A DNA stretch of 64,000 bases, taken from Bacteroidales bacterium. GTDB lineage: Bacteria; Bacteroidota; Bacteroidia; Bacteroidales; UBA932. Within the stretch, counting starts at the first letter, position 1. Every line of letters begins with the position of its first letter. Where the stretch lies: positions 62,001-126,000 of the forward strand of contig JAGBHM010000004.1 of NCBI GenBank assembly GCA_017935505.1. Direction: 5' to 3'. Positions 7,528-61,686 of the stretch are shown here, in pieces. Both the position numbers and the translations under genes were made by a program. The notes under the pieces are model-generated. The model was not told where the DNA came from. It ran no database searches and saw nothing but the letters and a program-made list of their open reading frames with translations.

Positions 7528-7538
7528 TGGAAATGGGT

Positions 7539-9737: not shown

Positions 9738-9761
9738 CAATCTTTTAATCAATAAACGACA

Positions 9762-38879: not shown

Positions 38880-39350
38880 ATGATACTTAACAAACAGGTC
38901 GGTGTGTTCCTAAATCTGGTGCACAACCGCTTCAAGCAGTACATTACAGCATTTTTTCAAGAAGAGGGATACAACCTCACGCCAGAACAGTTCCTTGTAA
39001 TGGATGCAATCTGGGATGAAGGAAAAATGTCACAACAGAAAATTGCCGATACAATCTTTAAAGACAAGAACTCTGTTGTAAAACTGCTCGACGGCCTTGA
39101 AAAAAAGAACCTTGTGAGAAGGGTTGCAAATAAAGATGACCGCCGCCAGAACCTGATTGAAATAACCCCGCATGCAAAAGAGATACAGCAGAATGTTACA
39201 GACATTGCCATGAATGCTGTAGACCTTATAATAAAGGATATTCCTAAACAAGATCTGCATATCTTCATAAAAGTGCTTACCAAAATGGCCGAGAATATGA
39301 ATGAAAATACAGATTTACAACAACTTGCAAATAATAAAAAGAATTTATAA
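38880..39350 (+). CDS. MarR-family transcriptional regulator
   Basis: A 156-residue winged-helix protein: the recognition region KMSQQKIADTIFKDKNSVVKLLDGLEKK and the wing DKDDRRQNLIEIT-like segment (NKDDRRQNLIEITPHAKE) are intact. It is the first gene of the redox cluster and its stop overlaps the next start by one base (TAATG), so it is likely a local, self-regulating repressor of the Hdr-like genes, responding to an unknown ligand. Confidence 0.88.
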   Translation: MILNKQVGVFLNLVHNRFKQYITAFFQEEGYNLTPEQFLVMDAIWDEGKMSQQKIADTIFKDKNSVVKLLDGLEKKNLVRRVANKDDRRQNLIEITPHAKEIQQNVTDIAMNAVDLIIKDIPKQDLHIFIKVLTKMAENMNENTDLQQLANNKKNL

Positions 39351-40045
39351 TGGGAAAATTGTACGACAGACTTACCCAGGATTACCGCATCAAGGAGGGA
39401 TTGAAGGCCTGCATAAACTGCGGCACTTGCACAGCTATCTGTCCGGCAGCTGAATTTTACCAATATGACCCGAGGCAGATTGTGGACATTGTCCAGAGCA
39501 AAGATGATGCAGAGATTGAAAAACTGCTCAAAAGCGAGACAATATGGTATTGTGGAGAGTGCATGTCCTGCATTACAAGATGTCCAAGAAAAAATGCACC
39601 AGGGCTCGTTATTATGGCACTGAGAAGCCTCTCTATGGAGATGGGATACTTTGCTGAATCAGAAAAAGGACGCCAGCAATATGCACTCACAAAGGTGCTT
39701 TGCGACAACATACTCAATTATGGCTACTGTGTATATCCGAGAACATTTGCCTCTGCACTCCACCCGGAAGCCGGGAAAATATGGGAGTGGCAGGAGAAAC
39801 ATATGGAAGATATCTATGCCAGAATGGGTGCCAATCTCGACGGAGACGGAACCGGAGCATTGAGAAGAATTCCTCAAAAAGACCTTGACGAGCTTAAACG
39901 CATTTTTGACATAACAGGCGCTACACAAAGGATAGAGACTATCAACAGATGCTCCATGGAAAAGGCCAAAGAGCTGGGACTCAGCGAAGAGGAGTATTTT
40001 ATGAAAGTCTTTACAGAAACTGAAAAAGATCACTTGAACCATTAG
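39350..40045 (+). CDS. HdrC-like 4Fe-4S dicluster protein
   Basis: A 231-residue cytoplasmic protein with two ferredoxin cluster motifs near the start: CINCGTCTAICP (about 22-33) and CGECMSCITRCP (about 69-80). The C-terminal half is helical. This is the HdrC-type electron-carrying subunit of heterodisulfide-reductase-like complexes. It overlaps marR by one base and is followed 4 bases later by the HdrB-like gene. Confidence 0.85.
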   Translation: MGKLYDRLTQDYRIKEGLKACINCGTCTAICPAAEFYQYDPRQIVDIVQSKDDAEIEKLLKSETIWYCGECMSCITRCPRKNAPGLVIMALRSLSMEMGYFAESEKGRQQYALTKVLCDNILNYGYCVYPRTFASALHPEAGKIWEWQEKHMEDIYARMGANLDGDGTGALRRIPQKDLDELKRIFDITGATQRIETINRCSMEKAKELGLSEEEYFMKVFTETEKDHLNH

Positions 40046-40049
40046 AATC

Positions 40050-41117
40050 ATGATATACGAAGGAAAACAGAAGATATGGTCTGATTATCAGAAAGATATT
40101 CCGGATGACCACTATTTTTATGTAAGAAGCTGCATAAGGCAGAGCTTCTTTCCGGCATCAGAACAGACCTTTCTTGACATTACCAGAAACAGGTTGCATA
40201 AAGATTTCTTTGAGTCGGAACACCATACAACATGCGGAGGTATAGCCTACCATTCGGATGCAATACCTCAGGAGACTGCAATGACTATAATTGCCAGACA
40301 GTTTGCCCTGATGCACAAATATGGCTATGAAAACTATGTCTGCTCATGCATAACCTCATTCGGACTCTATACAGAGACACTTGAGACATGGCGCGAGTTT
40401 CCAGAACTGGAGGCCAGAATAAAGGAGAAGCTGTGGGAGTCATGCAAATTGGAGTTTGCAAAACCAAAATATCTTGCCCATGCCAGTGATATAATCTACA
40501 AATTCAGGAACCAAATTGCCCAGCAGGCAAAATTCAAGCTCATCAATAAAAAGACCGGAGAGCCGCTCAGAGTGGTGGAACATATCGGATGCCACTATGC
40601 CAAGATGTTCCCATCCAAAGGGTTTGGAGGAGCCGAATATCCATATGTACTTGCCGGAATGATTGAGGCGTGGGGTGGCGAAGTAATTGATTATCCTGAA
40701 CGTAGGCATTGCTGCGGATTCGGATTCAGACAATATCTTGTACAGAGCAACCGCGGCTACTCACTTTCAAATACACACAAAAAATTTGAATCGATGGAGC
40801 CGTATAAACCGGATATGATAATTACCAATTGCCCTGGATGCCCATACTTCCTCGACAGATGGCAATATGTAATATCTGAAATGGAGGGCAAGACCTACGG
40901 CAAGGATGGCCACGGTATTCCGGTATTCACCTACGAAGAGGTTGCCGGCCTTGTATTGGGATACGACCCTTGGGATCTTGGCCTGCAGGTACACCAGGTA
41001 AGCGTGGAACCGCTCCTCGACAAGATGGGAATACCATATGACCCGTCGAAAAAATATAAAGGAATAAATGGCAAAGATCTGGGTAGGCCGGAACTTCCTA
41101 CTTGCGCATGTCTGTAA
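40050..41117 (+). CDS. HdrB-like protein (CCG domain, one copy degenerate)
   Basis: A 355-residue HdrB-like subunit. The C-terminal CCG motif is complete: C181, C221-C222 (CCGFG), C261 and C264 (CPGC), which in HdrB holds a noncubane [4Fe-4S] cluster. The N-terminal copy is altered: C28, then TCGG with a single Cys (C62) instead of CC, then CSC (C98, C100) instead of CxxC. So only one of the two clusters of methanogen HdrB is certain. The partner thiol or disulfide is unknown. Confidence 0.85.
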   Translation: MIYEGKQKIWSDYQKDIPDDHYFYVRSCIRQSFFPASEQTFLDITRNRLHKDFFESEHHTTCGGIAYHSDAIPQETAMTIIARQFALMHKYGYENYVCSCITSFGLYTETLETWREFPELEARIKEKLWESCKLEFAKPKYLAHASDIIYKFRNQIAQQAKFKLINKKTGEPLRVVEHIGCHYAKMFPSKGFGGAEYPYVLAGMIEAWGGEVIDYPERRHCCGFGFRQYLVQSNRGYSLSNTHKKFESMEPYKPDMIITNCPGCPYFLDRWQYVISEMEGKTYGKDGHGIPVFTYEEVAGLVLGYDPWDLGLQVHQVSVEPLLDKMGIPYDPSKKYKGINGKDLGRPELPTCACL

Positions 41118-41135
41118 AATTTAACCAAACTTAAG

Positions 41136-42152
41136 ATGAATAATAATGTAATAATTATAGGAGGCGGCCCATGTGGTCTTGAGGCTTCTGCCCAGCTCCA
41201 CCAAATGGGATACAATGTAATACTTGTTGAAAGAGAGCCACAATTGGGAGGCCATCTTGCAAAATGGGACAGACTCTTTCCGGAAGGAATAAAGGCTAAA
41301 GAGGTTCTGGATCAATTAATTGCAAATATAAACGGAGTAAAATACTTCCTTAATACAGAGGTAAAATCAATAAACCAGCTCGACAAGGAGTACAATGTGA
41401 TACTCTCGAACGGAATCACAATTCTTGCAACAGCGGTCCTTATGGCCTCAGGCTTCGACCTCTTCCCTGCCGAAAAGAAAGAGGAGTACGGATATGGCAT
41501 CTACGACAAGGTTATTACCAATGCCGACCTGGAAAACTACTTCAATACCGGTAAGGACCGTCGTATTACAGCGGCCCCAAAGAGAATCGGATTTGTGCAC
41601 TGTGTCGGTTCCAGAGATGAAAAAGCGGGAAACAGATATTGCTCAAAAGTATGCTGTGCCACTGCCGTAAAACAGGCATGTGAAGCCAAAGAGGCCTTCC
41701 CTGATGCTGAAGTCTTCTGTTTCTATATGGATTTGAGGATGTTCGGACGAGGCTATGAAGATCTTTATCTGCGTGCCCAGAAAGAGTATGGCGTACGTTT
41801 TATAAGGGGCCGTGTTTCTGAGGTTGCAGAGGATATCAACAGCCAGCTTATTGTAAAGGCAGAGGATACATTGAGTGGAAAACCGATAAAGGTAACTCTC
41901 GACCTGCTTGTTCTGATGGCCGGAATGACAAATTGCCAGGCAGGAGTCAAAGTGGCAAACATGCTCTCTCTCAAAAAGGATGATGATGGTTTCTTCACCT
42001 GCAAGGATTCGATACTGCATCTGCAGCAGAGCGACAAGAAGGGAATTTTCTATGCAGGCGCATGTACAGGTCCCAAGACATTGCCGGATACTCTGCACGA
42101 AGCGAGAGCTGCAGCTATCGCCATACATAACTATTTTAAAGAGAGGAAATAA
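41136..42152 (+). CDS. HdrA/QmoA-like FAD oxidoreductase (short form)
   Basis: A 338-residue flavoprotein with FAD-binding IIIGGGPCGLEASAQ at residues 5-19 and the HdrA-specific FVHCVGSRDEKAGNRYCSKVCC cluster motif at about 150. Full HdrA proteins are about 650 residues and carry extra ferredoxin domains; this one lacks them and is closer in size to QmoA. The one-base overlap (TAATG) with the next gene suggests coupling. It could be the electron-bifurcating or electron-input flavin. Confidence 0.85.
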   Translation: MNNNVIIIGGGPCGLEASAQLHQMGYNVILVEREPQLGGHLAKWDRLFPEGIKAKEVLDQLIANINGVKYFLNTEVKSINQLDKEYNVILSNGITILATAVLMASGFDLFPAEKKEEYGYGIYDKVITNADLENYFNTGKDRRITAAPKRIGFVHCVGSRDEKAGNRYCSKVCCATAVKQACEAKEAFPDAEVFCFYMDLRMFGRGYEDLYLRAQKEYGVRFIRGRVSEVAEDINSQLIVKAEDTLSGKPIKVTLDLLVLMAGMTNCQAGVKVANMLSLKKDDDGFFTCKDSILHLQQSDKKGIFYAGACTGPKTLPDTLHEARAAAIAIHNYFKERK

Positions 42153-42481
42153 TGGCAAATTTCGGATATTCTTTGACAAAAAGTTCCAGAATTGATCTCA
42201 ACAACCGCAACATAGAAAAATGGAACAGGCTTGTTGAACTGGAACCAGATGTGCTCAAATGTATGGCCTGCGGCTCGTGTACAGCCAGCTGTACTGCCGG
42301 TAAATTCACAAAAACAAGTTTGAGAAGCGCCATACTCTATCTGCAAAATGGTCAGGAGAAGGAGGCACTGGAGTATATACAGTCATGCCTGTTGTGCGGC
42401 AAATGTTTCATGGTATGCCCAAGAGCCATCAATACGAGACATTTATTATTATCAATCAGCAAAATTTACAGTAATAGATGA
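42152..42481 (+). CDS. Second HdrC-like 4Fe-4S protein
   Basis: A 109-residue protein with CMACGSCTASCT (about residues 31-42) and CLLCGKCFMVCP (about 75-86), giving two [4Fe-4S] clusters. Smaller than the first HdrC-like subunit and probably bridges the flavoprotein and the membrane subunit. Overlaps the next gene by 4 bases (ATGA). Confidence 0.85.
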   Translation: MANFGYSLTKSSRIDLNNRNIEKWNRLVELEPDVLKCMACGSCTASCTAGKFTKTSLRSAILYLQNGQEKEALEYIQSCLLCGKCFMVCPRAINTRHLLLSISKIYSNR

Positions 42482-44310
42482 GAGAAAGAATTATAGGTGG
42501 CTATGACCATTTTGTGCTGCCATTCATGATAGGAATGATCTTTATCCTTGTATATCTGCTTATTGCAATGATAAAGGTCATAATGTCGCTGCCGGCCTCC
42601 GACAGAAAGAAACTGGCTCTTTCGCTTATAAATCCCAAGATAATGTACAAAAATATAAGGGACATTATTTGCGATTGCCTTTTACATATAAAAATATTCA
42701 AACGCAACCTGTTGCTGGGTTACATGCATGCCAGCATTGCATTCGGCTGGTTTATGATAATTGTCATCGGACATATTGAAGTGATGCTGTTTGTGCCACA
42801 GCGCAACGGTTCGCTCTACTACCCTCTCTTCTACAGATTTTTTGTTGCAGAGCAGAACCAGACACTTAAAGGTGCAGTATTCTTCTTTTTGATGGACTTC
42901 TTCCTTCTGGTAATACTCAGCGGTATCGGACTTGCCATGTACAAGAGGATAAGGTCCCGTGCGCTTGGAATGAGAAGGACAACCAAACCATGCTTTGCAG
43001 ATAGGGTTGCATTATATTGCCTCTGGTCTATTTTCCCATTAAGACTTCTGGCCGAAGGATTTACAGCAGGCATAAGTGGCGGCAGCTTCCTTACCAAGCC
43101 TACCAATATGCTATTTGCAAGTTTCCTTGGCAACGACATGAATATAATGCCTACATGGTGGGCATACTCAACAGTTCTCGGAATCTTTTTCCTTGCATTG
43201 CCATTCAGCAGATATATGCACATCCCTACCGAAGCATTCTACATTTTCCTCAGAAATGCAGGATTGAAGATACACCATCCACGCAAAGGAGTTGCGGAGG
43301 CCGAAATCTACTCATGCTCAAGTTGCGGAATATGTCTTGATGCATGTCCGATGAATGTGCAAAAGAAGAATCTGCCATACTCTTCTGTATATTTCATACG
43401 TTTCCAAAGAAGAAATAACAAAAAGAAAATCAATGAGATAGCCGACAAATGTCTGATGTGTGGCAAATGTGTTGCACTTTGTCCTGTTGGGGTAGATTCA
43501 TGTGGTCTGAAACAGGCTCAGAGAGCTGTTGTAAATAACACCCTGCCGTATGACTACAAATTCCTCGGCACTGCAGGTCATACCGCAGCAGCTCCTCAGA
43601 ATGACGATAACGGCATACTCTATTTTGCAGGCTGTATGACACACCTCACCCCTGCCATCATCAAATCAATGACAAAAATATTTGAAGCGGCAGGAGAAAA
43701 ATATCTCTTTGCAGATAAAGATGGCGGTGTATGTTGCGGAAGGCCGCTTATGCTGGCCGGAAAGACAGAGGCGGCAAAAGAGGTGATTGCAAAGAATACA
43801 CAAAATATTATGGAGAGCGGCTGCAAGACAGTTGTACTGTCGTGTCCAATCTGTCTAAAAGTGCTGAAAGAGGAGTATAATCTGAAAGGAATTACCCTTC
43901 TGCACCATACCCAGTATATAAACAACCTGATCCAGCAGAAGCGTCTTGTACTCAACAAGAGTGAGGAGAGCTTCGTCTTCCACGACCCTTGCGAACTTGG
44001 AAGAGGCTGTAATATCTACAATGAACCGAGAAATGTACTGCAATCTATCGGGCAGTTGAAGAAGGCAGGCAAAGAGAAGAAGGAGAGCATATGCTGTGGA
44101 GGAAGTTTGGGCAGCCTCACACTCAATTATAACGACAGAGTAAAGATTACACAGGAATCGCTCAATATACTCACATACAATAATCCTGACAAGATTGTCA
44201 CAGCATGTCCTCTGTGTCTTAAAACATTCTCAGACCAATCTGCCAGACCTGTTGTAGACATTGCGCAAACCGTTGCAGAGAATATTTGCAACGGTTGCAT
44301 AAAACAGTAA
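42478..44310 (+). CDS. Membrane-bound HdrE-HdrD fusion-like iron-sulfur subunit
   Basis: A 610-residue protein. The first ~260 residues hold about five membrane helices with histidines (YMHASIAFGW, VIGHIEVM) like those that bind heme b in NarI/HdrE. Two ferredoxin motifs follow (CSSCGICLDACP and CLMCGKCVALCP, about 280-335). The C-terminal half has two CCG domains (CMTH...CCGRP...CPIC; CELG...CCGGS...CPLC). This order is that of DsrM-DsrK or HmeC-HmeD joined in one chain. It would connect menaquinone in the membrane to the soluble Hdr-like subunits. The fusion layout is notable. Confidence 0.85.
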   Translation: MRERIIGGYDHFVLPFMIGMIFILVYLLIAMIKVIMSLPASDRKKLALSLINPKIMYKNIRDIICDCLLHIKIFKRNLLLGYMHASIAFGWFMIIVIGHIEVMLFVPQRNGSLYYPLFYRFFVAEQNQTLKGAVFFFLMDFFLLVILSGIGLAMYKRIRSRALGMRRTTKPCFADRVALYCLWSIFPLRLLAEGFTAGISGGSFLTKPTNMLFASFLGNDMNIMPTWWAYSTVLGIFFLALPFSRYMHIPTEAFYIFLRNAGLKIHHPRKGVAEAEIYSCSSCGICLDACPMNVQKKNLPYSSVYFIRFQRRNNKKKINEIADKCLMCGKCVALCPVGVDSCGLKQAQRAVVNNTLPYDYKFLGTAGHTAAAPQNDDNGILYFAGCMTHLTPAIIKSMTKIFEAAGEKYLFADKDGGVCCGRPLMLAGKTEAAKEVIAKNTQNIMESGCKTVVLSCPICLKVLKEEYNLKGITLLHHTQYINNLIQQKRLVLNKSEESFVFHDPCELGRGCNIYNEPRNVLQSIGQLKKAGKEKKESICCGGSLGSLTLNYNDRVKITQESLNILTYNNPDKIVTACPLCLKTFSDQSARPVVDIAQTVAENICNGCIKQ

Positions 44311-44351: not shown

Positions 44352-45641
44352 ATGGAAATCAAACCTACAGAATACACCCTGCAGACCGTTGCCACCGGCC
44401 GCAATTACCCGGACAGCGGATGGCTGCTTGGTGATAAGGAGTGCTCATCCCCATCACTTATAAGAGCAGTATATGCAAAAAAACAGATTGAGTTCAAAGA
44501 TAACAGCTTCGGACTCTATAAATTTGCCGACTGGCTCCCTGTGCAAAGGGCGCTGGAGGGTTCATGCGCACCTGTAACATATAAAAGCGAAGGTTTGGCC
44601 AAAGAGCTTGGTCTTACTAACCTATATATCACATTCTCAGGCTATTGGCCAGAGAAGGGGGCAACAATGTACACATGTTCATTCAAGGAGACAGAGGCCT
44701 ACTCCGTATGTGCAAGGCTTCCTAAAGATGAAAAGAAGATTCTTGTTGTTGCTTCAGCCGGAAATACTGCAAGGGCTTTTGCTCAGGTATGTTCCGACAA
44801 CAATATTCCTATTGTAATAGCGGTTCCTTTTGAAAATATGGGAGCCCTCTGGTTTAAGAAACCCCTCAACAAATGTGTGAAGATCATCTGCACACCTGCC
44901 GGAACAGACTACTTTGATGCAATCCAGCTCGGAGCAAAGGTTTGTGAGTCTCCTGCATTCCTCGAAGAGGGCGGTGCAAAGAATGTGGCTCGCAGAGACG
45001 GTATGGGTACAACTGTTCTCTCTGCTGTTGAACATATCGGACGCATTCCTGACAGCTATTTCCAGGCTATCGGAAGCGGTACCGGAACTATCGCAGCATG
45101 GGAGGCCAACATGAGATTTATAGAAGACGGCCGTTTCGGCAACCACCTGATGAAGCTTATCCCATCACAAAACATTCCTTTCACTCCTATGTATGATGCC
45201 TGGAAACAGGATAGCAGGGCTCTTCTCCAATATGATGAGGAGGATGCTGTAAAACGTGCGCTGGAGATTGATGCAAAAGTGCTTTCAAACAGAAGGCCTC
45301 CATACTCTCTTGCCGGAGGATTGTACGATGCGGTAAAAGCTACCGGCGGAGATATTGAACTTGCCACCAATGAGGAGCTCAGAGAGGCTTGTCAGCTCTT
45401 TGAGAAGGTAGAGGGTAATGATGTACATCCTGCAGCAGGAGTTGCCATTGTAAGCCTTAAAAAGGCCCTTGCAAGCGGTAAGATATCAAAAGATGAGGTT
45501 GTAATGCTCAATATTACCGGAGGTGGTGAGAAACGTTTCAAGAGAGAATTCAAATATGTACAGGCAGAGCCGGATCTTGTAATTTCAAGTACAGAAGATT
45601 CTGCTGTGATTATTGAGAAAGTTCTGAATCTGTTCAAATAA
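44352..45641 (+). CDS. Cysteate synthase-like PLP enzyme
   Basis: A 429-residue fold-type II PLP enzyme related to threonine synthase. The candidate PLP lysine lies in TCSFKETEAY, the Asn loop in SAGNTARAF and the phosphate loop in GSGTGTIAAWEA. The overall layout, including the N-terminal GRNYPDSGWLL region and the FSGYWPEKGATM segment, fits cysteate synthase (phosphoserine + sulfite to L-cysteate), known from coenzyme M synthesis in Methanosarcina and, in Bacteroidetes, linked to sulfonolipids. The assignment is by recall. Threonine synthase is the main alternative. It forms a unit with the SulP gene. Confidence 0.75.
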   Translation: MEIKPTEYTLQTVATGRNYPDSGWLLGDKECSSPSLIRAVYAKKQIEFKDNSFGLYKFADWLPVQRALEGSCAPVTYKSEGLAKELGLTNLYITFSGYWPEKGATMYTCSFKETEAYSVCARLPKDEKKILVVASAGNTARAFAQVCSDNNIPIVIAVPFENMGALWFKKPLNKCVKIICTPAGTDYFDAIQLGAKVCESPAFLEEGGAKNVARRDGMGTTVLSAVEHIGRIPDSYFQAIGSGTGTIAAWEANMRFIEDGRFGNHLMKLIPSQNIPFTPMYDAWKQDSRALLQYDEEDAVKRALEIDAKVLSNRRPPYSLAGGLYDAVKATGGDIELATNEELREACQLFEKVEGNDVHPAAGVAIVSLKKALASGKISKDEVVMLNITGGGEKRFKREFKYVQAEPDLVISSTEDSAVIIEKVLNLFK

Positions 45642-45667: not shown

Positions 45668-47383
45668 ATGGCAAAATTCAATCTGGCTGAAGTTTTCCAG
45701 CCCAAAATACTTGAGTTGTTCAAAAAGGGCAACTACAATAAACAGACATTTACGGCCGACCTTATAGCCGGTATCATAGTTGGTATCATTGCGCTTCCTC
45801 TTGCAATTGCATTCGGTATCGCATCTGGTGTATCACCTCAGCAAGGTTTGATAACTGCAGTTGTTGCGGGTTTCCTTGTATCACTACTTGGTGGATCACA
45901 CTTTTTGATTGGAGGTCCTACAGGTGCATTCATTGTAATTGTATATGGAATTGTTGCACAATATGGCATCTCAGGATTGATCATAGCAACTGTTCTGGCC
46001 GGTATCATACTGGTACTTATGGGCGTGTTCAAGCTGGGAAGCATCATCAAGTTCATCCCCTATCCTATTGTGGTTGGTTTTACCAGCGGTATCGCTGTTG
46101 TAATATTCTCAACCCAGGTAAAGGATTTCCTCGGCCTTACAATAGATAATCTTCCAAGTGAGTTCATCCCTCAATGGGGAGCATATTTCAGCCACATCAG
46201 CACATTCAATCTCAATGAGTTCCTGTTGAGCCTCGGCTGTCTGCTCATTATTATATTCTGGCCTAAGGTAACCAACAAAGTGCCTGGTTCGCTCATTGCT
46301 ATAATAGTTGGAACCGGAGCCTCTATCATTCTGGCAAAATATTGCGGAATAGAGTTCGCTACAATCGGAAGCAAATTCCCTGAGCTGGCAAATGGTATTG
46401 AAATACCTAAACCGACAGCTCCAAATATCACTTGGGATACTGTACAAAGCATGTTCCAGCCTGCATTCACCATTGCACTTCTGTGTGCTATCGAGTCACT
46501 TTTGGCAGCAATGGTTGCCGATGGTGTTACAGGAAAAAGACACAACTCAAATACAGAGCTTATTGGTCAGGGTATTGCAAATATAATTACCCCATTCTTT
46601 GGCGGTATTCCTGCAACAGGTGCATTGGCTAGAACAATGGCAAATATCAATAACGGCGGAAAATCTCCGGTAGCAGGTATTGTACACGCTATTGTACTTC
46701 TGCTCATCTTCCTCTTCCTGATGCCTTATGCAGTCTATATTCCACTGGGATGTCTGGCTGCAATCCTTGTAATGGTTGCATACAATATGAGTGAGTGGAG
46801 AACATTCAAATACCTGCTAAAAGGAAATAAAATGGATGTTTCGGTGCTTCTCATCACCTTCTTCCTTACAGTAGTGATAGACCTTACTGTTGCAATTGAA
46901 GTGGGACTTGTATTGGCCATTATATTGTTTGTAAAACGTATCTCTGAAACTTCATCAATAAAAGTACTTGAAGGTGACAGCGTTGCCGGAACTGAAAATG
47001 ATGAGATTGCACAGCTTGCAGATACTGAGCATCTGGATATTGCACCAGGTGTTGAGATATATGAGATCGACGGTCCTTTCTTCTTCGGACTTGCCAGCAA
47101 ACTTGACGAAATAGACAGGGATTTGCGCAAACAGGGTATCAAGGTGCGTATCATAAGGATGAGGAAAGTTCCGTTCATGGATTCAACAGGTCTTAACAAC
47201 TTGAGAAGCCTTTGGAAACGCTCAAATAGAGAGAATGTACAGATAATCCTCAGCGGTGTAAATGAGAATGTTCTTGCATACCTCAATAAGGTTGGATTTG
47301 CCCAGGAGTTGGGAGAAGAGTACATCTTCCCTCACATCATTCCGGCAGTAGCCAAGGCAAATGAGCTGAGCGAAAGGAAATAA
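45668..47383 (+). CDS. SulP-family anion transporter with STAS domain
   Basis: A 571-residue protein with about 11-14 membrane helices (from about residue 28) carrying the family signature (FGIASGVSPQQGL, GGSHFLIGGPTGAF) and a C-terminal STAS domain (PFMDSTGLNNLRSL, about 500-515). SulP proteins move sulfate, bicarbonate or other anions. Sitting 26 bases after cysteate synthase and ending in a terminator, it most likely supplies sulfate or sulfite for cysteate. A bicarbonate transporter is the alternative. Confidence 0.9.
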   Translation: MAKFNLAEVFQPKILELFKKGNYNKQTFTADLIAGIIVGIIALPLAIAFGIASGVSPQQGLITAVVAGFLVSLLGGSHFLIGGPTGAFIVIVYGIVAQYGISGLIIATVLAGIILVLMGVFKLGSIIKFIPYPIVVGFTSGIAVVIFSTQVKDFLGLTIDNLPSEFIPQWGAYFSHISTFNLNEFLLSLGCLLIIIFWPKVTNKVPGSLIAIIVGTGASIILAKYCGIEFATIGSKFPELANGIEIPKPTAPNITWDTVQSMFQPAFTIALLCAIESLLAAMVADGVTGKRHNSNTELIGQGIANIITPFFGGIPATGALARTMANINNGGKSPVAGIVHAIVLLLIFLFLMPYAVYIPLGCLAAILVMVAYNMSEWRTFKYLLKGNKMDVSVLLITFFLTVVIDLTVAIEVGLVLAIILFVKRISETSSIKVLEGDSVAGTENDEIAQLADTEHLDIAPGVEIYEIDGPFFFGLASKLDEIDRDLRKQGIKVRIIRMRKVPFMDSTGLNNLRSLWKRSNRENVQIILSGVNENVLAYLNKVGFAQELGEEYIFPHIIPAVAKANELSERK

Positions 47384-49416: not shown

Positions 49417-50805
49417 CTACACCAGGAACAAAAATCCAAGCACCACAATCAGGGCTACAACAAAGAGGTCTATCAGACAGTACCCCATAATGTCTTTTGC
49501 ATTAAGTTTTGCAATTGCAAGGGCTGGAAGAGCCCAAAACGGCTGTATCAGATTTGTCCAGGCATCACCGTAGGCAATTGCCATTCCGGTAATTGCCGGC
49601 TCTACACCAAGCTGCATTCCGGCAGGCAGCATAATAGGAGCCTGAACAGCCCATTGACCGCCACCACTAGGCACAAATACATTTACAATACCTGCACTCA
49701 AGAATGTGAGCATAGGAAATGTGGTTTTATTTGAAATAGCGACACATGCCTCACTTATCTGGCCTGCAAGTGAAACGCCTTCGGCTGAGGCAGAGGTCAT
49801 GATACCCATAATTCCCGCATAAAACGGAAATTGAAGCAAAATGCCGGCACATGATGAAGAGGCATTTGTAACAGCCTTGACATATTTTATCGGGGTTTTA
49901 TGCAGAATTATACCAAGGAACATGAAGAGCATGATCACGCTGTTCAAATCAAGTCCTCCCCCATTCACAAAGAGTCTGATAATGAGATATCCCAAGCCCA
50001 TTACAGATATTATGCCCGATAGCAGTATGCTGTTGTTCAGCTTTTCTGAAGGGGTAAGTTTCCACTCTATCTTGCACTCCTTTTCACCAGTTGCACCACA
50101 AAGATTGTTCTCTTTAATCTCCTCAGCATCTCCCAACAAAGCCGGATCTACAATAAACGCCTTCTCTGGAGAAGGGTGCATAAGTGTATTCACAACGGTA
50201 AGTGCTGCAATTATCAGAAATACTATAATAAGATTATATGTAGCAAATATTGTTTGGGAAATTGGTATTGCCGACGTTATGGTTCCACGCGATACCTCTA
50301 CCAACGAGGCCCCCTCTGTTGCCATTGCCAAAGGTATTGAGGCTGACAGGCCGGAGTGCCACACCACAAATCCGCTATAGGCAGATGCGATAAGCAGACG
50401 GTAATCCACCCCTTTTACGGCACGCGCTATCTCCTTTGCAAATATGGCTCCAACTATAAGGCCGAATCCCCAGTTGATCCAGCATGCCACACTTGCTACC
50501 AATGTAACGGTAGTTATGGCCGCAGCCGGAGTCTTGGGAAATGCAGCTATTTTACGCAAGCCTCTCTTTATCAGAGGAGCATCGGCCAGAGCAGAGCCGC
50601 ATACCAGCACAAGAGCCATCTGCATCGAAAAGGCCAGCAGACTCCAGACTCCCCCACCCCAGTTTTCAACCACATCAAGAGGAGACTGTCCTGTAGAGAT
50701 CATTGCAGCCAAAGCTGCCACTATTGTAAGAATTATTGCAAAAACAAATGGATCGGGAAGATATTTTCTAATTAGCTTCACCGACAAATCAATCAATTTT
50801 CCCAT
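49417..50805 (-). CDS. atoE: Short-chain fatty acid transporter (AtoE family)
   Basis: A 462-residue protein from the ATG at 50805; the upstream extension to 50904 crosses the promoter element and lacks conservation. About 11-12 membrane helices and the family sequences WINWGFGLIVGAIFA, WHSGLSASIPLA and FVPSGGGQWAVQAPIMLPA. Such proteins carry acetoacetate, butyrate or similar acids. It lies right behind the lysine-to-butyrate operon but is separated by a terminator and has its own -7 element, so regulation can differ. Confidence 0.9.
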   Translation of the reverse strand: MGKLIDLSVKLIRKYLPDPFVFAIILTIVAALAAMISTGQSPLDVVENWGGGVWSLLAFSMQMALVLVCGSALADAPLIKRGLRKIAAFPKTPAAAITTVTLVASVACWINWGFGLIVGAIFAKEIARAVKGVDYRLLIASAYSGFVVWHSGLSASIPLAMATEGASLVEVSRGTITSAIPISQTIFATYNLIIVFLIIAALTVVNTLMHPSPEKAFIVDPALLGDAEEIKENNLCGATGEKECKIEWKLTPSEKLNNSILLSGIISVMGLGYLIIRLFVNGGGLDLNSVIMLFMFLGIILHKTPIKYVKAVTNASSSCAGILLQFPFYAGIMGIMTSASAEGVSLAGQISEACVAISNKTTFPMLTFLSAGIVNVFVPSGGGQWAVQAPIMLPAGMQLGVEPAITGMAIAYGDAWTNLIQPFWALPALAIAKLNAKDIMGYCLIDLFVVALIVVLGFLFLV

Positions 50806-50830
50806 AATTTTAATACACTTTATCCGAATG

Positions 50831-50838
50831 CAAAGATA
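50831..50838 (-). promoter_or_regulatory. Bacteroidetes -7 element for atoE
   Basis: TATCTTTG on the minus strand, 25 bases upstream of the ATG at 50805. It argues against the 50904 start. Confidence 0.5.
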
Positions 50839-50872
50839 CTGCAAAAAGGAATGTATTATTCTTAAACATATA

Positions 50873-50920
50873 TAAAAAAGGCACCCGGAGGCTGGATTTA
50901 CCAACTCTCTCCGGATGCCT
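50873..50920 (-). terminator. Terminator of the lysine fermentation operon
   Basis: AGGCATCCGGAG pairs with CTCCGGGTGCCT on the minus strand (12 bp, one wobble), loop of 18 bases, then six T. It follows etfA by 28 bases. Confidence 0.9.
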
Positions 50921-50948
50921 GATCTTTATTGGTCAATATTTCAGATCA

Positions 50949-51962
50949 CTATTTCTTGATCTCTTTTGCCAATCTCTCTGTAAGCATAGGAACAATCTTG
51001 TTAGCATCGCCAACGATTCCCAAATCAGCTACCTGGAAGATAGGAGCAAATTTGTCTTTGTTGATTGCAATGATAAGTTCAGACTCTTCCATACCTGCCA
51101 AGTGCTGGATAGCACCAGAGATACCGCATGCAAGATACAAGTCTGGACGAACTGTTTTACCAGTTTGACCAACTTGTCTGTCGTGATCCATAACGCCAGC
51201 GTCAACCATAGCACGTGAAGAAGAAACCTCACCACCGAGAACACCAGCAAGAGCTGTAAGTTTCTCAAAGTTCTCTTTGTTACCTACACCACGACCACCA
51301 GAAACTAGTACTTTAGCCTCAGTAATGTCAACAAGACCTTTCTCAGCTTTAACAGTCTCTAGCAATTTAACAGCAAATTTAGAAGAATCGAATACTACGT
51401 TGAAAGGAATTATATTACCTTTTCTAGAAGCATCTTTCTCTTTTTTCTGCATAACGCCTGGACGAACTGTTGCCATCTGAACACCATCTTTAGCTGCAAC
51501 GATAGTAGCCATAAGGTTACCGCCAAATGCAGGACGGGTCATCATCAATTTTCTGGCAGCCAATTTAGGATCAGAACCATCTGAGATCTCCAATTTAGTA
51601 CAGTCTGCAGTTAGACCTTTCTCCAATCTAGCTGATAGTCTTGGAGCCAAATCTCTACCAATTGTAGTTGCACCAAATAGAACGATATCTGGGTTCATAG
51701 CTGTGATAACTTGGTATACAGCTTGAGTATATTGCTCAGTTACATAATCTTTTAGCTCAGGAGCATCAACAACGATAACGTCATCAGCACCATAAGCAAT
51801 AAGCTCATTAGCCTGGTCTGCAATGTTATGGCCAGCGAAAATAGCTACTACTTTATCGCCCAAAACATCAGCCAAATCTCTTGCTTTGCCAATAAGCTCT
51901 AGAGCAACAGGTTGGATAACACCCTCTCTCTGCTCTGCGAATACATATACGTTTTTATTCAT
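50949..51962 (-). CDS. etfA: Electron transfer flavoprotein alpha subunit
   Basis: A 337-residue protein with the C-terminal FAD-binding domain (SGGRGVGNKENF, SSSRAMVDAG, GQTGKTVRPDLYLACGISGAIQH). With EtfB it accepts electrons in the butyryl-CoA dehydrogenase step. The Bcd/EtfAB set of amino-acid fermenters can bifurcate electrons from NADH to crotonyl-CoA and ferredoxin; whether this one does is not shown by what I can see. Last gene of the operon. Confidence 0.93.
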   Translation of the reverse strand: MNKNVYVFAEQREGVIQPVALELIGKARDLADVLGDKVVAIFAGHNIADQANELIAYGADDVIVVDAPELKDYVTEQYTQAVYQVITAMNPDIVLFGATTIGRDLAPRLSARLEKGLTADCTKLEISDGSDPKLAARKLMMTRPAFGGNLMATIVAAKDGVQMATVRPGVMQKKEKDASRKGNIIPFNVVFDSSKFAVKLLETVKAEKGLVDITEAKVLVSGGRGVGNKENFEKLTALAGVLGGEVSSSRAMVDAGVMDHDRQVGQTGKTVRPDLYLACGISGAIQHLAGMEESELIIAINKDKFAPIFQVADLGIVGDANKIVPMLTERLAKEIKK

Positions 51963-51982
51963 TTCTTATTAAGTTTTGGCGA

Positions 51983-52762
51983 TTAGATAATAAATTTCTC
52001 TTTTAGTTTGCTTACGATCAAGCCAACAGCTTGCTCTGCATCAACCTCGTGAACCTCACCTGCAGCTTTAACGCCTTTAGTGAATGATTTGTAAACTTTT
52101 GTACCTGAGCCTTTAAGACCAAGCATCTCTACAGGAAGATCAACTTTCTCAACACCCCAAACTGCTACTGGTTTGTCAAATGCGTCAACGATACCTGCTA
52201 CATTCATATAACGGGCTTTGAAACCGCTTGCAAGAGCTGTAAGAAGAACTGGACCAGCTACCTCCAACATTTGGTAACCCTCCTCAGTCTCTTTCTTAAC
52301 AACGAATTTGCCATCTTTATACTCAAGACCTGCAACATATGAAATCTGTGGAAGACCAAGGTGCTCAGCAATTTGAGGACCTACCTGTGCAGTATCACCA
52401 TCAATAGCCTGACGGCCTGCAATGATCAAATCATACTCCAAGTTCTTAAGAGCTGCAGCAATAGTGTGAGATGTTGCCAAAGTATCAGCACCACCAAACT
52501 CTCTTCCTGTTAGCAAAATAGCCTCGTCAGCACCCATAGCGTATGCCTCTCTAAGGATAGCATCTGCTTGAGGAGGACCCATTGTAATAACTGTTACATG
52601 AGCGCCATACTGATCTTTCAACTGAAGAGCCATCTCCAAGCCACCTTTATCATCAGGGTTCATAATGCTTGGAACGCCATCACGGATAAGTGTACCTGTT
52701 ACAGGGTTAATTTTAATAACTGTAGTATCCGGTACTTGTTTAATACAAACTACTATTTTCAT
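51983..52762 (-). CDS. etfB: Electron transfer flavoprotein beta subunit
   Basis: A 259-residue protein with the EtfB start MKIVVCIKQVPDTT and the nucleotide loop VTVITMGPPQADAILREA, GADEAILLTGREFGGADTLAT and AGRQAIDGDTAQVGPQIAEHLG. It forms a dimer with EtfA; the genes are 20 bases apart. Confidence 0.94.
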   Translation of the reverse strand: MKIVVCIKQVPDTTVIKINPVTGTLIRDGVPSIMNPDDKGGLEMALQLKDQYGAHVTVITMGPPQADAILREAYAMGADEAILLTGREFGGADTLATSHTIAAALKNLEYDLIIAGRQAIDGDTAQVGPQIAEHLGLPQISYVAGLEYKDGKFVVKKETEEGYQMLEVAGPVLLTALASGFKARYMNVAGIVDAFDKPVAVWGVEKVDLPVEMLGLKGSGTKVYKSFTKGVKAAGEVHEVDAEQAVGLIVSKLKEKFII

Positions 52763-52774
52763 ATTTGTGTGATT

Positions 52775-53914
52775 CTATTTAAATAATTTTGCTGCAATTA
52801 CCATTCTCTGAACCTCTGAAGTTCCCTCATAAATCTCGGTGATCTTAGCGTCACGCATCATTCTCTCAACTGGATACTCTCTTGTGTAACCGTAACCGCC
52901 GTGGAATTGAACTGCTTTAGTAGTTACCTCCATTGCAGTCTCAGCAGCGAACAATTTACACATAGCTGCATCAGCAGAGAAAGGCATGTGCTGATCCTGT
53001 TTCCAAGCTGCTGATCTAACCAATAGACGAGCTGCCTGTACTTTAGTCTCAAGATCTGCCATCTGGAACTGGGTATTTTGGAAAGCAGAAATTGATTTAC
53101 CGAACTGTTTTCTCTCTTTAGTATATTTAACAGTCTCATCCATAGCGCCTTGAGCGATACCAAGAGCCTGAGAAGCAATACCGATACGGCCACCGTCAAG
53201 AGTCTTCATAGCAACTTTGAAGCCCTCACCCATTTTACCTAGCATGTTAGCTTTAGGAACGCGGCAGTTCTCGAAAATAAGCTCGCAAGTAGCAGAACCT
53301 CTAATACCTAGTTTGTGCTCTTTTTTACCAATTGAGAAACCAGGAGTACCAGCCTCAACGATGAAAGTGGTAATACCTTTGTTTCCTAGAGATTTGTCAG
53401 TCATAGTAGCAACTACATACACGTGAGCAGGACCTGCGTTAGTGATGAAGATTTTGCTACCGTTAAGGATATAATCATCACCATCCTCAACAGCAGTTGT
53501 CTGCTGACCGGCAGCATCAGTACCTGCATTAGGCTCAGTTAGACCGAAAGCACCAATCCACTCACCGCTGGCAAGTTTTGGAAGGTATTTCTGTTTCTGC
53601 TCCTCAGTACCGAACTCCCAGATTGGAGACATACACAAAGAAGTGTGTGCAGAAAGGATTACACCGGTAGTAGCACATACTCTTGAAAGCTCCTCTACAG
53701 CTATAGAATACATAATGTGGTCACCACCAGCACCACCATAATTTTTAGGGATGTAAATACCGAATAGACCTAATTTAGCCATTTTTTCAACGGTTTCCAT
53801 AGGGAATCTTTCGGTATCATCTACCTCAGCAGCAAGGGGTTTTACCTCTTTCTCAGCAAACTCTCTGATCATTTGCTGGAACAATTGCTGTGTTTTAGTT
53901 AGTTGAAAATTCAT
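52775..53914 (-). CDS. bcd: Butyryl-CoA dehydrogenase (short-chain acyl-CoA dehydrogenase)
   Basis: A 379-residue acyl-CoA dehydrogenase that reduces crotonyl-CoA to butyryl-CoA. Family motifs: LTEPNAGTDAAGQQTTA, WKQDQHMPFSADAAMCKLFAAE, and the C-terminal ITEIYEGTSEVQRM with the catalytic Glu. It is placed between the CoA transferase and etfBA, and in this pathway works with EtfAB. Gaps of 7 and 12 bases link it to both neighbours. Confidence 0.93.
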   Translation of the reverse strand: MNFQLTKTQQLFQQMIREFAEKEVKPLAAEVDDTERFPMETVEKMAKLGLFGIYIPKNYGGAGGDHIMYSIAVEELSRVCATTGVILSAHTSLCMSPIWEFGTEEQKQKYLPKLASGEWIGAFGLTEPNAGTDAAGQQTTAVEDGDDYILNGSKIFITNAGPAHVYVVATMTDKSLGNKGITTFIVEAGTPGFSIGKKEHKLGIRGSATCELIFENCRVPKANMLGKMGEGFKVAMKTLDGGRIGIASQALGIAQGAMDETVKYTKERKQFGKSISAFQNTQFQMADLETKVQAARLLVRSAAWKQDQHMPFSADAAMCKLFAAETAMEVTTKAVQFHGGYGYTREYPVERMMRDAKITEIYEGTSEVQRMVIAAKLFK

Positions 53915-53921
53915 TTTGTAT

Positions 53922-54584
53922 TTAGTTTAAGTTAACTTGTTTTAAATTGTCTGAAATAATAAGAGTAGCCTCTGTAGCCTCCTGAACCTGCTCAACAGTA
54001 AACTCAGGATTGATCTCTGTAAGCAAAATACCTTTTGGAGTAATTTCCATTACACCCATCTCGGTAATGATCATATTTACCTGACCGGCAGCAGTCAAAG
54101 GCAATTTACACTTTTTCAAGATCTTGTGATTGCCTTTTGCAGTATGCTCCATTGTAAGGATAACCTTCTTCGCACCAACCAGAAGGTCCATGGCGCCACC
54201 CATACCAGGGGTTTTCTTACCAGGAATCATCCAGTTTGCCAAGTTACCCTCTTCATCAACCTCCAATGCACCAAGGAAAGTCACATTTACATGACCACCT
54301 CTGATAATACCAAAAGAAGTTGCTGAATCAAATGTAGAAGCACCCGGTTGATATGTGATATATCCGCCACCTGCATTTACAAAGTGTGGATCCTCCTTTC
54401 CTTGTTCAGGCTCTGGGCCCATACCAAGCATACCATTCTCAGATTGAAGAGTAACTGATACGCCTTTTGGAAGGTAGTTTGGAATAAGTGTAGGCAAACC
54501 TATACCCAAATTCACAACATCACCATCTTTAATCTCAAGAGCTGCCCTTTTGGCAATAAATTCTCTAATTTGATTTTTATCCAT
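53922..54584 (-). CDS. atoA: Butyrate-acetoacetate CoA-transferase beta subunit
   Basis: A 220-residue class I CoA transferase subunit B with GIGLPTLIPNYLP and the catalytic Glu in LQSENGMLGMGP. It should move CoA from butyryl-CoA to acetoacetate, releasing butyrate. Its partner, the alpha subunit, is the first gene of the operon, about 8.4 kb upstream, so the two subunit genes bracket the amino-acid steps instead of lying side by side. Confidence 0.88.
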   Translation of the reverse strand: MDKNQIREFIAKRAALEIKDGDVVNLGIGLPTLIPNYLPKGVSVTLQSENGMLGMGPEPEQGKEDPHFVNAGGGYITYQPGASTFDSATSFGIIRGGHVNVTFLGALEVDEEGNLANWMIPGKKTPGMGGAMDLLVGAKKVILTMEHTAKGNHKILKKCKLPLTAAGQVNMIITEMGVMEITPKGILLTEINPEFTVEQVQEATEATLIISDNLKQVNLN

Positions 54585-54599
54585 GATATTTTGTGTTAA

Positions 54600-55385
54600 T
54601 TATTTGTTTCTGTTAACCATCTCCTGAGCAACATAAGATGCCACATCGTCTGCATAGGTGTTTGCACCGAAACCGGCATCATAACCAAGCTCTTTTGCAA
54701 GCTCATGGCTTATTCTAGGGCCACCGCATACAACAATCATCTTGTCTCTCAAGCCCTCAGCCTCCATAAGCTCAATAAGCTCTGTAAGGTTCTGGATATG
54801 TACATCTTTCTGGGTTACTGTCTGGGATACAAGAATAGCATCAGCCTTTAACTCGATAGCCTTTGCAAGGAACTCCTCATTAGGAACCTGGCTACCCAAG
54901 TTGTAAGCCTCAACCATATCATATCTCTCAAGGCCGTAGTGGCCAGCATAACCCTTCATATTCATGATTGCATCAATACCTACAGTGTGGGCATCTGTAC
55001 CGGTACTTGCACCAACCATAACAATCTTACGTCCGATATTCTCCTTGATATACTCGTCACACTCATGCATATCCATGGTATTACTCTCTACCTTAGGAAC
55101 ATAAATGTTTGAATAATCTACTGTATGGGTAAGATTTCCATAGCAGTTGAAGAATGTGAATCCAGGAGTAAGCTCTTTTGCAAATGCTACAAGCGGATTC
55201 TCAAAACCCATCTTTTTCATAAGAAGCTTTGCTGCCTCTTCTGCCTCTGCACCGTTAGGAACAGGAAGTGTAAAGCTCACCTGAACTTTACCGTCATTCA
55301 TTGTATCACCGTATGGTTTTACTTTCGCCAAATCAAGTGTCTGATCAAAATCCTTTGCAGACATTGAATATAATCCACCTGCCAT
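54600..55385 (-). CDS. kamE: Lysine 5,6-aminomutase beta subunit
   Basis: A 261-residue B12-binding subunit. DAHTVG (D131, H133, G136) is the cobalt-ligand motif and K144 in MKGY lies where the C. sticklandii enzyme forms its PLP link. With KamD it moves the terminal amino group of beta-lysine (or lysine) from C6 to C5, using adenosylcobalamin and PLP. Follows KamD by 2 bases. Confidence 0.94.
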   Translation of the reverse strand: MAGGLYSMSAKDFDQTLDLAKVKPYGDTMNDGKVQVSFTLPVPNGAEAEEAAKLLMKKMGFENPLVAFAKELTPGFTFFNCYGNLTHTVDYSNIYVPKVESNTMDMHECDEYIKENIGRKIVMVGASTGTDAHTVGIDAIMNMKGYAGHYGLERYDMVEAYNLGSQVPNEEFLAKAIELKADAILVSQTVTQKDVHIQNLTELIELMEAEGLRDKMIVVCGGPRISHELAKELGYDAGFGANTYADDVASYVAQEMVNRNK

Positions 55386-55387
55386 TG

Positions 55388-56941
55388 TTATTTCCTCCCT
55401 TTCATTAAGTTAATAAATGGATTCATATAGTTGGCACCCTTCTCAACAACACCATCCAAACCTTTACCGCCAACTCTGCTTCTCTTGACATCACCAAAGA
55501 TACCCTTCTCCAGAGCATTGAACAATCCCTCAGATGTCATCTGCTCAAGAAGTGAAATTGCATTATCAAGAACCTCTTTTGCTCTGTTTCTGATAATTCC
55601 ACCCTCTTTGAACTCCATCTCATCACCGATGCTCTTCATATTGTTGAAGATATATTTAGCATTCTCGATAGAGAGGAAACGGTCAGACATGAATGGAGTG
55701 TGGATAGCCTCTGTAGGCATACCAAGAAGCTGCAGACCCTGGCTTGTCCAGATACCGATCATATTGAACAATGCATCCTGAAGATGTCCTCTGAAGATAT
55801 TTCCGGTCATGAATTTTGTAGGAGGCATATATTTAAGAGGTGCTTTAGGGAAGATTTCCCTTGCCATCTGTGCCTGTGCAAGCTCATAAAGGAATCCGTT
55901 CTCAAGCATAGGATCCATCTCAAATGCGTGACCAAGACCCATCTGCTCCTCTGGAAGACCTGCCAACAGTGCCAACTGCTCGTTAATCAGATCAGAAGCA
56001 AGAACTGTATGGGCAGCCTCAACAGCATCTGCAGTTGTAAGGTAGTTATCCTCACCAGTGTTGATGATGACACCTGCAAATCCGTTGATTATTCTCGACA
56101 TATACTGGTCGATAAGAGTTCTCTGCATGTTGATATCGCGGAAGAGGATACCGTAAAGGGCATCATTCAACATTACATCCAAACCCTCAAATGCACCCAT
56201 AATCGCAATCTCAGGCATACACAAACCTGAACAGTAGTTACATACTCTGATATAACGGCCAAGCTCCTCGCCCACTTTATCCATTGCCTCACGCATAATC
56301 TTGAAGTTGGCTTGTGTAGCGTAAGTACCACCAAAACCCTCAGTTGTTACACCGTATGGCACATAATCAAGCAAACTCTGGCCTGTAGTTCTGATAACTG
56401 CAATAATATCAGCACCTTGTCTTGCAGCAGCCTCTGCCTGTACTGCATCTTCGTAGATATTTCCGGTAGCAACAATTACATATAGATAAGGTTTTGCACC
56501 CTCACCGATTGTATTCAGGTAATGCTCCCTTCTCTCTCTTCTCGCCCTTATCTTATTGATACTCTCATCTATAACAGGTTGAAGCACTTTATCAAGGGCA
56601 GCCTTGTCGGCCACTTCAACTTTGGTGAGATCCAAAGAGCCCTCTGCAACTTTTTCTGCAATTTGCTGAGGAGTCATGCCTGTATTGACCATAGCGTTGG
56701 CCAAATAGAACAAAACACCCTGATTGAGAACACCTTTAGATTTCAAATCATCCACAACCACATTAGGAAGCGGAACTTCATTAGCATCTACCCCATCAAT
56801 GCCCATGAGTCTGCACAATGTACGCTCAACAGCTACAGTAGTGTAAGACTCTACAAAAGACTGAACTTCATTGGCAATCTCTTTTGCCAAGCCTTTGGCG
56901 CGCTCAACCTTTTTAAAATCTAATCCTAATTTACTCTGCAT
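55388..56941 (-). CDS. kamD: Lysine 5,6-aminomutase alpha subunit
   Basis: A 517-residue TIM-barrel subunit (start QSKLGLDFKKVERAKGLAKE, middle RTTGQSLLDYVPYGVTTEGFGGTYATQAN). It holds the adenosylcobalamin active site with KamE and converts L-beta-lysine to 3,5-diaminohexanoate. Length and partner match the Clostridium enzyme. Confidence 0.94.
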   Translation of the reverse strand: MQSKLGLDFKKVERAKGLAKEIANEVQSFVESYTTVAVERTLCRLMGIDGVDANEVPLPNVVVDDLKSKGVLNQGVLFYLANAMVNTGMTPQQIAEKVAEGSLDLTKVEVADKAALDKVLQPVIDESINKIRARRERREHYLNTIGEGAKPYLYVIVATGNIYEDAVQAEAAARQGADIIAVIRTTGQSLLDYVPYGVTTEGFGGTYATQANFKIMREAMDKVGEELGRYIRVCNYCSGLCMPEIAIMGAFEGLDVMLNDALYGILFRDINMQRTLIDQYMSRIINGFAGVIINTGEDNYLTTADAVEAAHTVLASDLINEQLALLAGLPEEQMGLGHAFEMDPMLENGFLYELAQAQMAREIFPKAPLKYMPPTKFMTGNIFRGHLQDALFNMIGIWTSQGLQLLGMPTEAIHTPFMSDRFLSIENAKYIFNNMKSIGDEMEFKEGGIIRNRAKEVLDNAISLLEQMTSEGLFNALEKGIFGDVKRSRVGGKGLDGVVEKGANYMNPFINLMKGRK

Positions 56942-56951
56942 ATTATTTTTA

Positions 56952-59307: not shown

Positions 59308-59318
59308 AACATGAATGA

Positions 59319-60566: not shown

Positions 60567-60590
60567 ATTTGTCTGTTAAATAGTTTAAAA

Positions 60591-61661: not shown

Positions 61662-61686
61662 TGTATCGTTGTATTTTAAATGTTTA

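Follow-up and report, generated by a model that had tools for sequence, protein, structure and literature searches.

A conserved heterodisulfide-reductase-like gene cassette with a fused membrane subunit in Bacteroidales

Gene content and conservation of the cassette

The DNA analyzed here (the window) is a 64-kb stretch of a Bacteroidales metagenome-assembled genome of 2.24 Mb that is 90% complete. It contains, on the plus strand, a MarR-family regulator gene followed by five heterodisulfide reductase (Hdr)-like genes, referred to below as the cassette:

38880-39350, plus strand: MarR-family regulator (PF01047, 51 bits)
39350-40045, plus strand: HdrC1, 231 aa; Fer4 domain (NF041890, 92 bits), cysteines C21/24/27/31 and C68/71/74/78
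40050-41117, plus strand: HdrB1, 355 aa; CCG domain (NF041780, 133 bits)
41136-42152, plus strand: short HdrA, 338 aa; flavin adenine dinucleotide (FAD) fold with HdrA similarity (NF040770, 264 bits)
42152-42481, plus strand: HdrC2, 109 aa; Fer4 domain, cysteines C37/40/43/47 and C79/82/85/89
42478-44310, plus strand: fused HdrE-HdrD, 610 aa; Fer4 and two CCG domains, and a membrane part with no Pfam match

The initial annotation had recognized, in a non-methanogen, an Hdr-like set of five subunits, one of them a membrane fusion, and this description held: all open reading frames (ORFs) were found in place and the domain calls agreed. The spacing from the MarR gene through the fused-subunit gene ranges from a 4-nt overlap to an 18-nt gap. 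The set had also been placed under the MarR regulator, which does stand at its head in the window but precedes the cassette in some, not all, related loci; in several loci of other lineages a two-component system is found upstream instead. An OhrR-type thiol switch was ruled out for this MarR protein, which has no cysteine at all.

The gene order, on which the initial annotation had made its proposal depend, was found to be conserved. The order C1-B1-A-C2-fused was retained in about 80 contig loci, wherever the contig spans the cassette, and 77 of the 99 Bacteroidales loci drawn for neighborhood analysis carried a full cassette, counted as HdrC1, HdrB1, HdrA, and a fused subunit of more than 570 aa. 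This conservation exceeds chance. The remaining loci were contig ends, misses of the simple ORF caller, non-cassette Hdr loci, and HdrC1-HdrB1 pairs alone, the last accounting for about ten of the 99. A few lineages, for instance at loci L246 and L248, show the alternative order C1-C2-fused-B1-A. HdrB1, the most conserved subunit, was detected in 133 of 392 Bacteroidales genomes, in 79 of 205 genera, and in 53 families; the module is thus present in about a third of the sampled genomes of the order, including many gut and rumen lineages. Beyond the Bacteroidales, 395 phylum-wide genomes gave just weak HdrB1 matches (E value of 1e-35 or worse), and no fused subunit was found on plasmids. Standard family models name the cassette proteins at the generic Hdr level only, and no earlier description of the cassette was found in the open-access literature, the search of which did not extend to subscription papers and preprints.

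C1-B1 pairs with no other cassette gene were seen at L228, L231, L233, L240, L244, L249, L268, and other loci. Several of them adjoin NifX-like, Mrp/ParA-type ATPase, DUF134-type, and methionine-gamma-lyase-like genes and resemble an ORP-type cluster.

Cluster ligands and folds of the subunits

The soluble subunits showed three features. First, HdrA has one FAD domain and a [4Fe-4S] motif (C156/C169/C173/C174), the cysteines of which were present in 87 of 87 sequences. It is colinear over its full length with PDB chain 6tjr_A (E value of 5e-61), which we take to be the sHdrA of Hyphomicrobium, a subunit of the sulfur-oxidizing Hdr-like (sHdr) systems. A maximum-likelihood tree grouped the cassette HdrAs with a Picosynechococcus HdrA, placed 6tjr_A next to this group, and set canonical HdrA and the Qmo-like proteins of Bacteroidales apart (ultrafast bootstrap [UFBoot], 92 to 99). 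By this placement the cassette HdrA is of the sHdrA type and neither canonical nor Qmo-like, with 6tjr_A as the sole characterized sHdrA in the tree and the sole certain sHdr reference in the analysis, the other sHdr-like references (Picosynechococcus and Acidithiobacillus) being plasmid genes of unproven function. Second, HdrB1 has a complete C-terminal CCG site (C181, C221, C222, C261, and C264) and a reduced N-terminal site consisting of C28, C62, and C100 together with Y67-H68, unlike HdrABC-type HdrB, which has the full N-terminal motif. All eight cysteines were present in 93 of 93 sequences. HdrB1 has this reduced-site signature (TSC-x4-YHG and CxTSFxxY) in common with the Picosynechococcus B1 and the Acidithiobacillus plasmid protein, whose functions are likewise unproven, and the best PDB fold match to the AlphaFold model of HdrB1 (mean predicted local distance difference test score [pLDDT], 80.6) was HdrB, 5odc_B. 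Third, HdrC1 and HdrC2 are both two-[4Fe-4S] ferredoxin-type subunits, and conservation of the HdrC1 cysteines exceeded 93% among 92 sequences.

These features bear on the suggestion, made in the initial annotation, that the cassette encodes a bifurcating complex, in which HdrA would split electron pairs between ferredoxin on the one hand and menaquinone or a disulfide on the other. HdrA family membership and the FAD would fit such a scheme, and a membrane quinone branch could serve as the high-potential arm. However, HdrA is short (338 aa compared to 643 to 671 aa for canonical HdrA chains in the PDB), it is without their extra ferredoxin domains, it stands closest to the non-bifurcating-type sHdrA, and the cassette includes no Flx, Mvh, or Fdh partner, that is, no NADH, H2, or formate module. 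Of all the explanations weighed here, flavin-based bifurcation appears the least probable.

The fused subunit consists of a five-helix membrane domain (approximately residues 1 to 260), two [4Fe-4S] clusters (C280 to C335), and two CCG sites (C386/419/420/456/459 and C505/539/540/577/580). All 18 cysteines, ten of them in the CCG sites, were present in 82 of 82 sequences. An AlphaFold2 model built from 52 sequences (mean pLDDT, 87.3) contains five long hydrophobic helices, and its best full-length fold match was Mycobacterium EtfD (PDB 9ojn), with a template modeling (TM) score of 0.76 and a structural alignment of 575 residues at Z 25.2 and a root mean square deviation (rmsd) of 3.8 Å. NarI matched residues 4 to 268 (Z about 9; rmsd, 5 to 6 Å) and HdrB matched residues 378 to 606. 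Foldseek also returned racemase matches to the CCG domains, which were treated as fold-level background. The predicted joining of a NarI/HdrE-type membrane part to ferredoxin motifs and two CCG domains was therefore confirmed in its fold. The second half, however, is of the HdrD type and not of the DsrK type (DsrK model NF045796, 42.5 bits compared to a cutoff of 400), so that the subunit is not a DsrMK piece but HdrE-HdrD/EtfD-like with two complete CCG sites.

The comparison with EtfD is informative at individual residues. In EtfD, an electron wire leading from electron-transferring flavoprotein (ETF) to menaquinone, catalytic features of Hdr have given way to Thr539 and His583 (PMC13083937). 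The places of these two residues are occupied in the fused subunit by C420, present in 82 of 82 sequences, and I458, present in 80 of 82 and otherwise V or Y. H84, H248, and H70 are invariant in the same 82 sequences; H248 aligns with EtfD His241, and EtfD His78 has a single well-placed counterpart in H84, which makes H84 and H248 candidate heme ligands. Since five cysteines are retained at each CCG site and the EtfD replacements are absent at C420 and I458, the fused subunit is assigned to the disulfide-reactive Hdr kind. Judged by its residues, it is wired like EtfD and has the ligand set of HdrD.

The same comparison was used to weigh an ETF:menaquinone oxidoreductase (EMO) function, in which the fused subunit would take electrons from EtfAB during acyl-CoA dehydrogenation. 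EtfD is the best full-length fold, and EtfD, EMO, and FadF likewise combine five membrane helices, two [4Fe-4S] clusters, and two CCG domains in one chain. Moreover, the window has EtfAB and acyl-CoA dehydrogenase genes at a distance of 6.6 kb, and such genes are neighbors of the cassette at L124, L125, and L247. However, EtfD, FadF, and DgcB no longer have the full set of Hdr cluster cysteines, whereas the ten CCG cysteines of the fused subunit are invariant and I458 stands in place of His583. Etf genes are also absent from nearly all cassette loci, and those in the window belong to a lysine-fermentation cluster on the opposite strand. At L247 (L247:1905-15475), EtfAB, acyl-CoA dehydrogenase, and the cassette have beside them a separate, split EtfD-type protein, a pair of 437 and 268 aa with a CDPHD motif and a first CCG site that is degenerate. 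An EMO function is thus highly improbable.

Relationship to sHdr and other Hdr systems

Two arrangements of sHdr have been described, type I (C1-B1-A-H-C2-B2) and type II (C1-B1-A-H-B3 with etfAB), in which B3 corresponds to C2 fused to B2 (PMC11582611). The window and nearly all cassette loci share the sHdr core order C1-B1-A. The likeness extends to the one-FAD HdrA, probably to HdrB1 with its reduced N-terminal and complete C-terminal CCG sites, and to a second C/B-type pair that completes the set and is fused in type II. There are also clear differences. The 109-aa ferredoxin stands at the position of the sHdr hypothetical protein H, the membrane-fused HdrE-HdrD takes the place of C2B2 or B3, no etfAB lies inside the cassette, and the hosts are anaerobic Bacteroidales.

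The lipoate-binding protein LbpA is essential in sHdr systems (PMC6067878, PMC10332631). The window's genome (G000) has a single GcvH of ordinary score with no second copy, and a GcvH search found none in two cassette carriers that are 98 to 99% complete (G040 and G053). An sHdr-LbpA system was rejected on this search. TusA was also not found in the window's genome. Because LbpA and TusA are both missing, the cassette is best described as sHdr derived but not as an sHdr-LbpA system; at the level of sequence and predicted fold, derivation from sHdr is probable and full sHdr membership fails. With the same C1-B1-A core and no LbpA, it offers a natural comparison for sHdr, the mechanism of which is still unclear.

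The closest relatives found outside the Bacteroidales were on a plasmid of Picosynechococcus sp. PCC 7003 (NZ_CP016476.1), whose C1, B1, and A proteins are 47, 40, and 42% identical to those of the window. This plasmid encodes a soluble C1-B1-A-C2-B2 set followed by a flavoprotein resembling sulfide:quinone oxidoreductase (SQR), so that a soluble second B subunit and a separate SQR-like flavoprotein stand where the cassette has the membrane fusion. The set lies at L160:8116-13856, and in the tree its HdrA clusters within the Bacteroidales group (UFBoot of 77 with L116), a placement that suggests horizontal transfer. An Acidithiobacillus plasmid (L161:787-4490) has a lone sHdrB1-like gene, a GcvH-like gene, and hemerythrin genes.

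The initial annotation had read the cassette as a mixture of QmoA-like and DsrMK-like pieces. QmoABC and DsrMKJOP do resemble it in combining an HdrA-like flavoprotein and HdrC/HdrD/HdrE-type modules with a link to menaquinone. However, the cassette has a single short HdrA, is without a second long HdrA (QmoB, MvhD part) or a QmoC-type HdrC-HdrE, and has a membrane subunit that carries HdrD domains. The QmoC model gave 48 bits on HdrC1 compared to 300, and no DsrJ, DsrO, or DsrP gene adjoins the cassette in the window. The mixture was rejected on the NCBIfam scores, including that of the DsrK model, and on the HdrA tree, in which HdrA groups with sHdrA; the three-cysteine signature of HdrB1 points the same way and also separates the cassette from canonical bifurcating HdrABC, as does the short HdrA. 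At locus L113 (L113:812-14155), a Qmo-like set of separate genes (long HdrA, HdrA, and HdrC-HdrE) lies just upstream of a cassette; a methionine-gamma-lyase-like gene follows that cassette, and TusA is upstream.

Possible function and sulfur context

In the window's genome, MenA (TIGR00751, 170 bits) adjoins MenG (TIGR01934, 259 bits), so menaquinone is expected. With H84 and H248 invariant, the earlier suggestion of a quinone-linked complex is probably correct. Synteny leads us to assume that the five proteins form one complex, and this enzyme probably passes electrons between a sulfur compound (thiol or disulfide) and menaquinone. Our preferred reading, tentatively put at a probability of roughly 0.45, is a membrane-bound, sHdr-derived, LbpA-independent thiol- or sulfane-sulfur:menaquinone oxidoreductase. 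Binding and oxidation of the reduced sulfur compound, which could be a low-molecular thiol, a dithiol, or a persulfide, would take place at the noncubane CCG clusters in HdrB1 and the HdrD part. The electrons would then follow the [4Fe-4S] chains of HdrC1 and HdrC2 and that of the fused subunit; HdrA, through its FAD and [4Fe-4S] cluster, would join the two branches, and heme b in the membrane would hand the electrons on to menaquinone. An anaerobic acceptor, perhaps fumarate reductase, may serve as the final sink. Most thiol/disulfide couples lie at about -230 mV and menaquinone at about -74 mV. Oxidation is favored over reduction because the former couples lie below menaquinone.

The opposite direction would make the complex a menaquinol-driven disulfide reductase working as methanogen HdrDE does, in which the fused subunit would use menaquinol electrons to reduce a heterodisulfide, either low-molecular or protein-bound, with HdrC1B1A as a second, soluble electron entry. 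The HdrE plus HdrD architecture agrees with this, as do the cluster ligands of the fused subunit, which are of the HdrB/HdrD type whose noncubane clusters cleave disulfides. Methanosarcina HdrDE indeed shares the HdrE-type membrane domain and an HdrD with two [4Fe-4S] clusters and two complete CCG sites. On the other hand, the cassette has one fused polypeptide and, in addition, HdrC1B1A and HdrC2, and its host is a menaquinone organism, not a methanophenazine one, that should have no coenzyme M-coenzyme B heterodisulfide (CoM-S-S-CoB), since neither coenzyme is expected in Bacteroidales. We also know of no candidate disulfide in these bacteria. At the potentials given above, menaquinol lacks the reducing power for most disulfides unless membrane potential drives the reaction, and the relatives of HdrA and probably those of HdrB1 are of the sulfur-oxidizing type. 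A disulfide reductase is therefore considered rather unlikely.

Two further genes continue on the same strand downstream of the fused-subunit gene:

44352-45641, plus strand: cysteate synthase (TIGR03844, 485 bits; cutoff, 324.9)
45668-47383, plus strand: SulP-family anion transporter with a STAS domain (PF00916, 296 bits)

The SulP gene is a possible operon member and is retained in part of the related loci. Cysteate synthase, which makes cysteate from phosphoserine and sulfite, lies outside the core complex; in the window's family (f1), three genera have its gene directly after the cassette. The gene was found in 48 of 133 genomes with HdrB1 across the order compared to 67 of 259 without, a weak co-occurrence (P = 0.046).

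This neighborhood raises the question of whether the complex oxidizes sulfane sulfur to sulfite as sHdr does, feeding cysteate synthase for sulfonolipid synthesis in f1. An sHdr-LbpA system does produce sulfite (PMC10451225, PMC11582611). The search of the window's genome yielded no PAPS (3′-phosphoadenosine-5′-phosphosulfate) reductase family protein, and within its genus a clear CysH/CysD-type match was obtained for G010 and G015 alone; without such a reductase, the sulfite for cysteate synthase would be imported or made otherwise, possibly by the cassette complex. However, genome G039 has cysteate synthase and neither cassette nor PAPS reductase, which weakens the link between the complex, sulfite, and cysteate synthase. 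Import is also a possible source, with SulP adjoining, and LbpA, essential for sHdr, is absent from the genomes searched. Finally, hdrB1 and cysteate synthase show no significant association outside f1; the latter was rejected as a general partner and is a local one at most. Sulfite formation is accordingly regarded as improbable.

Returning to thiol or sulfane-sulfur oxidation with menaquinone, support from sulfur-related neighbors is local but recurrent: cysteate synthase in f1, a methionine-gamma-lyase-like gene, and the SQR-like flavoprotein of the soluble Picosynechococcus version. At five loci from five families (L113, L228, L231, L240, and L264), hdrC1B1 or the cassette has the methionine-gamma-lyase-like gene as its immediate neighbor. 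At an assumed 3 such genes per 3,000, the chance of at least four of these neighbors in 190 slots is 5e-5. The name "-like" is used because the four proteins scanned scored 491 to 497 bits with TIGR01328, under the cutoff of 549.7. Several observations weigh against this preferred reading. First, the known soluble sulfur carriers LbpA and TusA do not accompany the cassette in the window's genome. Second, HdrDE of methanogens works in the opposite direction. Third, without family f1, the cysteate synthase counts become 42 of 127 compared to 67 of 258, which is not significant (P = 0.15). Finally, most cassette loci lie among housekeeping genes or regulators, and a sulfur context is not general.

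A broader proposal, which we regard as doubtful, is that the cassette represents a respiratory module widespread among anaerobic Bacteroidales and not described before, which would have descended from sHdr, become independent of LbpA and integrated into the membrane, and would deliver electrons from sulfur-amino-acid-derived thiols or sulfane sulfur to menaquinone and so give gut fermenters a sulfur-linked anaerobic respiration. If thiol or sulfane-sulfur oxidation with menaquinone is true, a major gut order would gain a sulfur step that conserves energy, and the reaction would bear on gut sulfide, methanethiol, and sulfonolipid levels.

Two other regions of the window were noted. The lysine-fermentation cluster (49417-62508, minus strand), identified by eye from the translations, comprises a fatty-acid transporter, EtfAB, acyl-CoA dehydrogenase, CoA-transferase subunits, and lysine aminomutase-type proteins, among others. 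At 5656-11957 there are three tandem secreted proteins of 623 to 736 aa that are apparently interrelated and possibly C25-peptidase-like with repeat tails.

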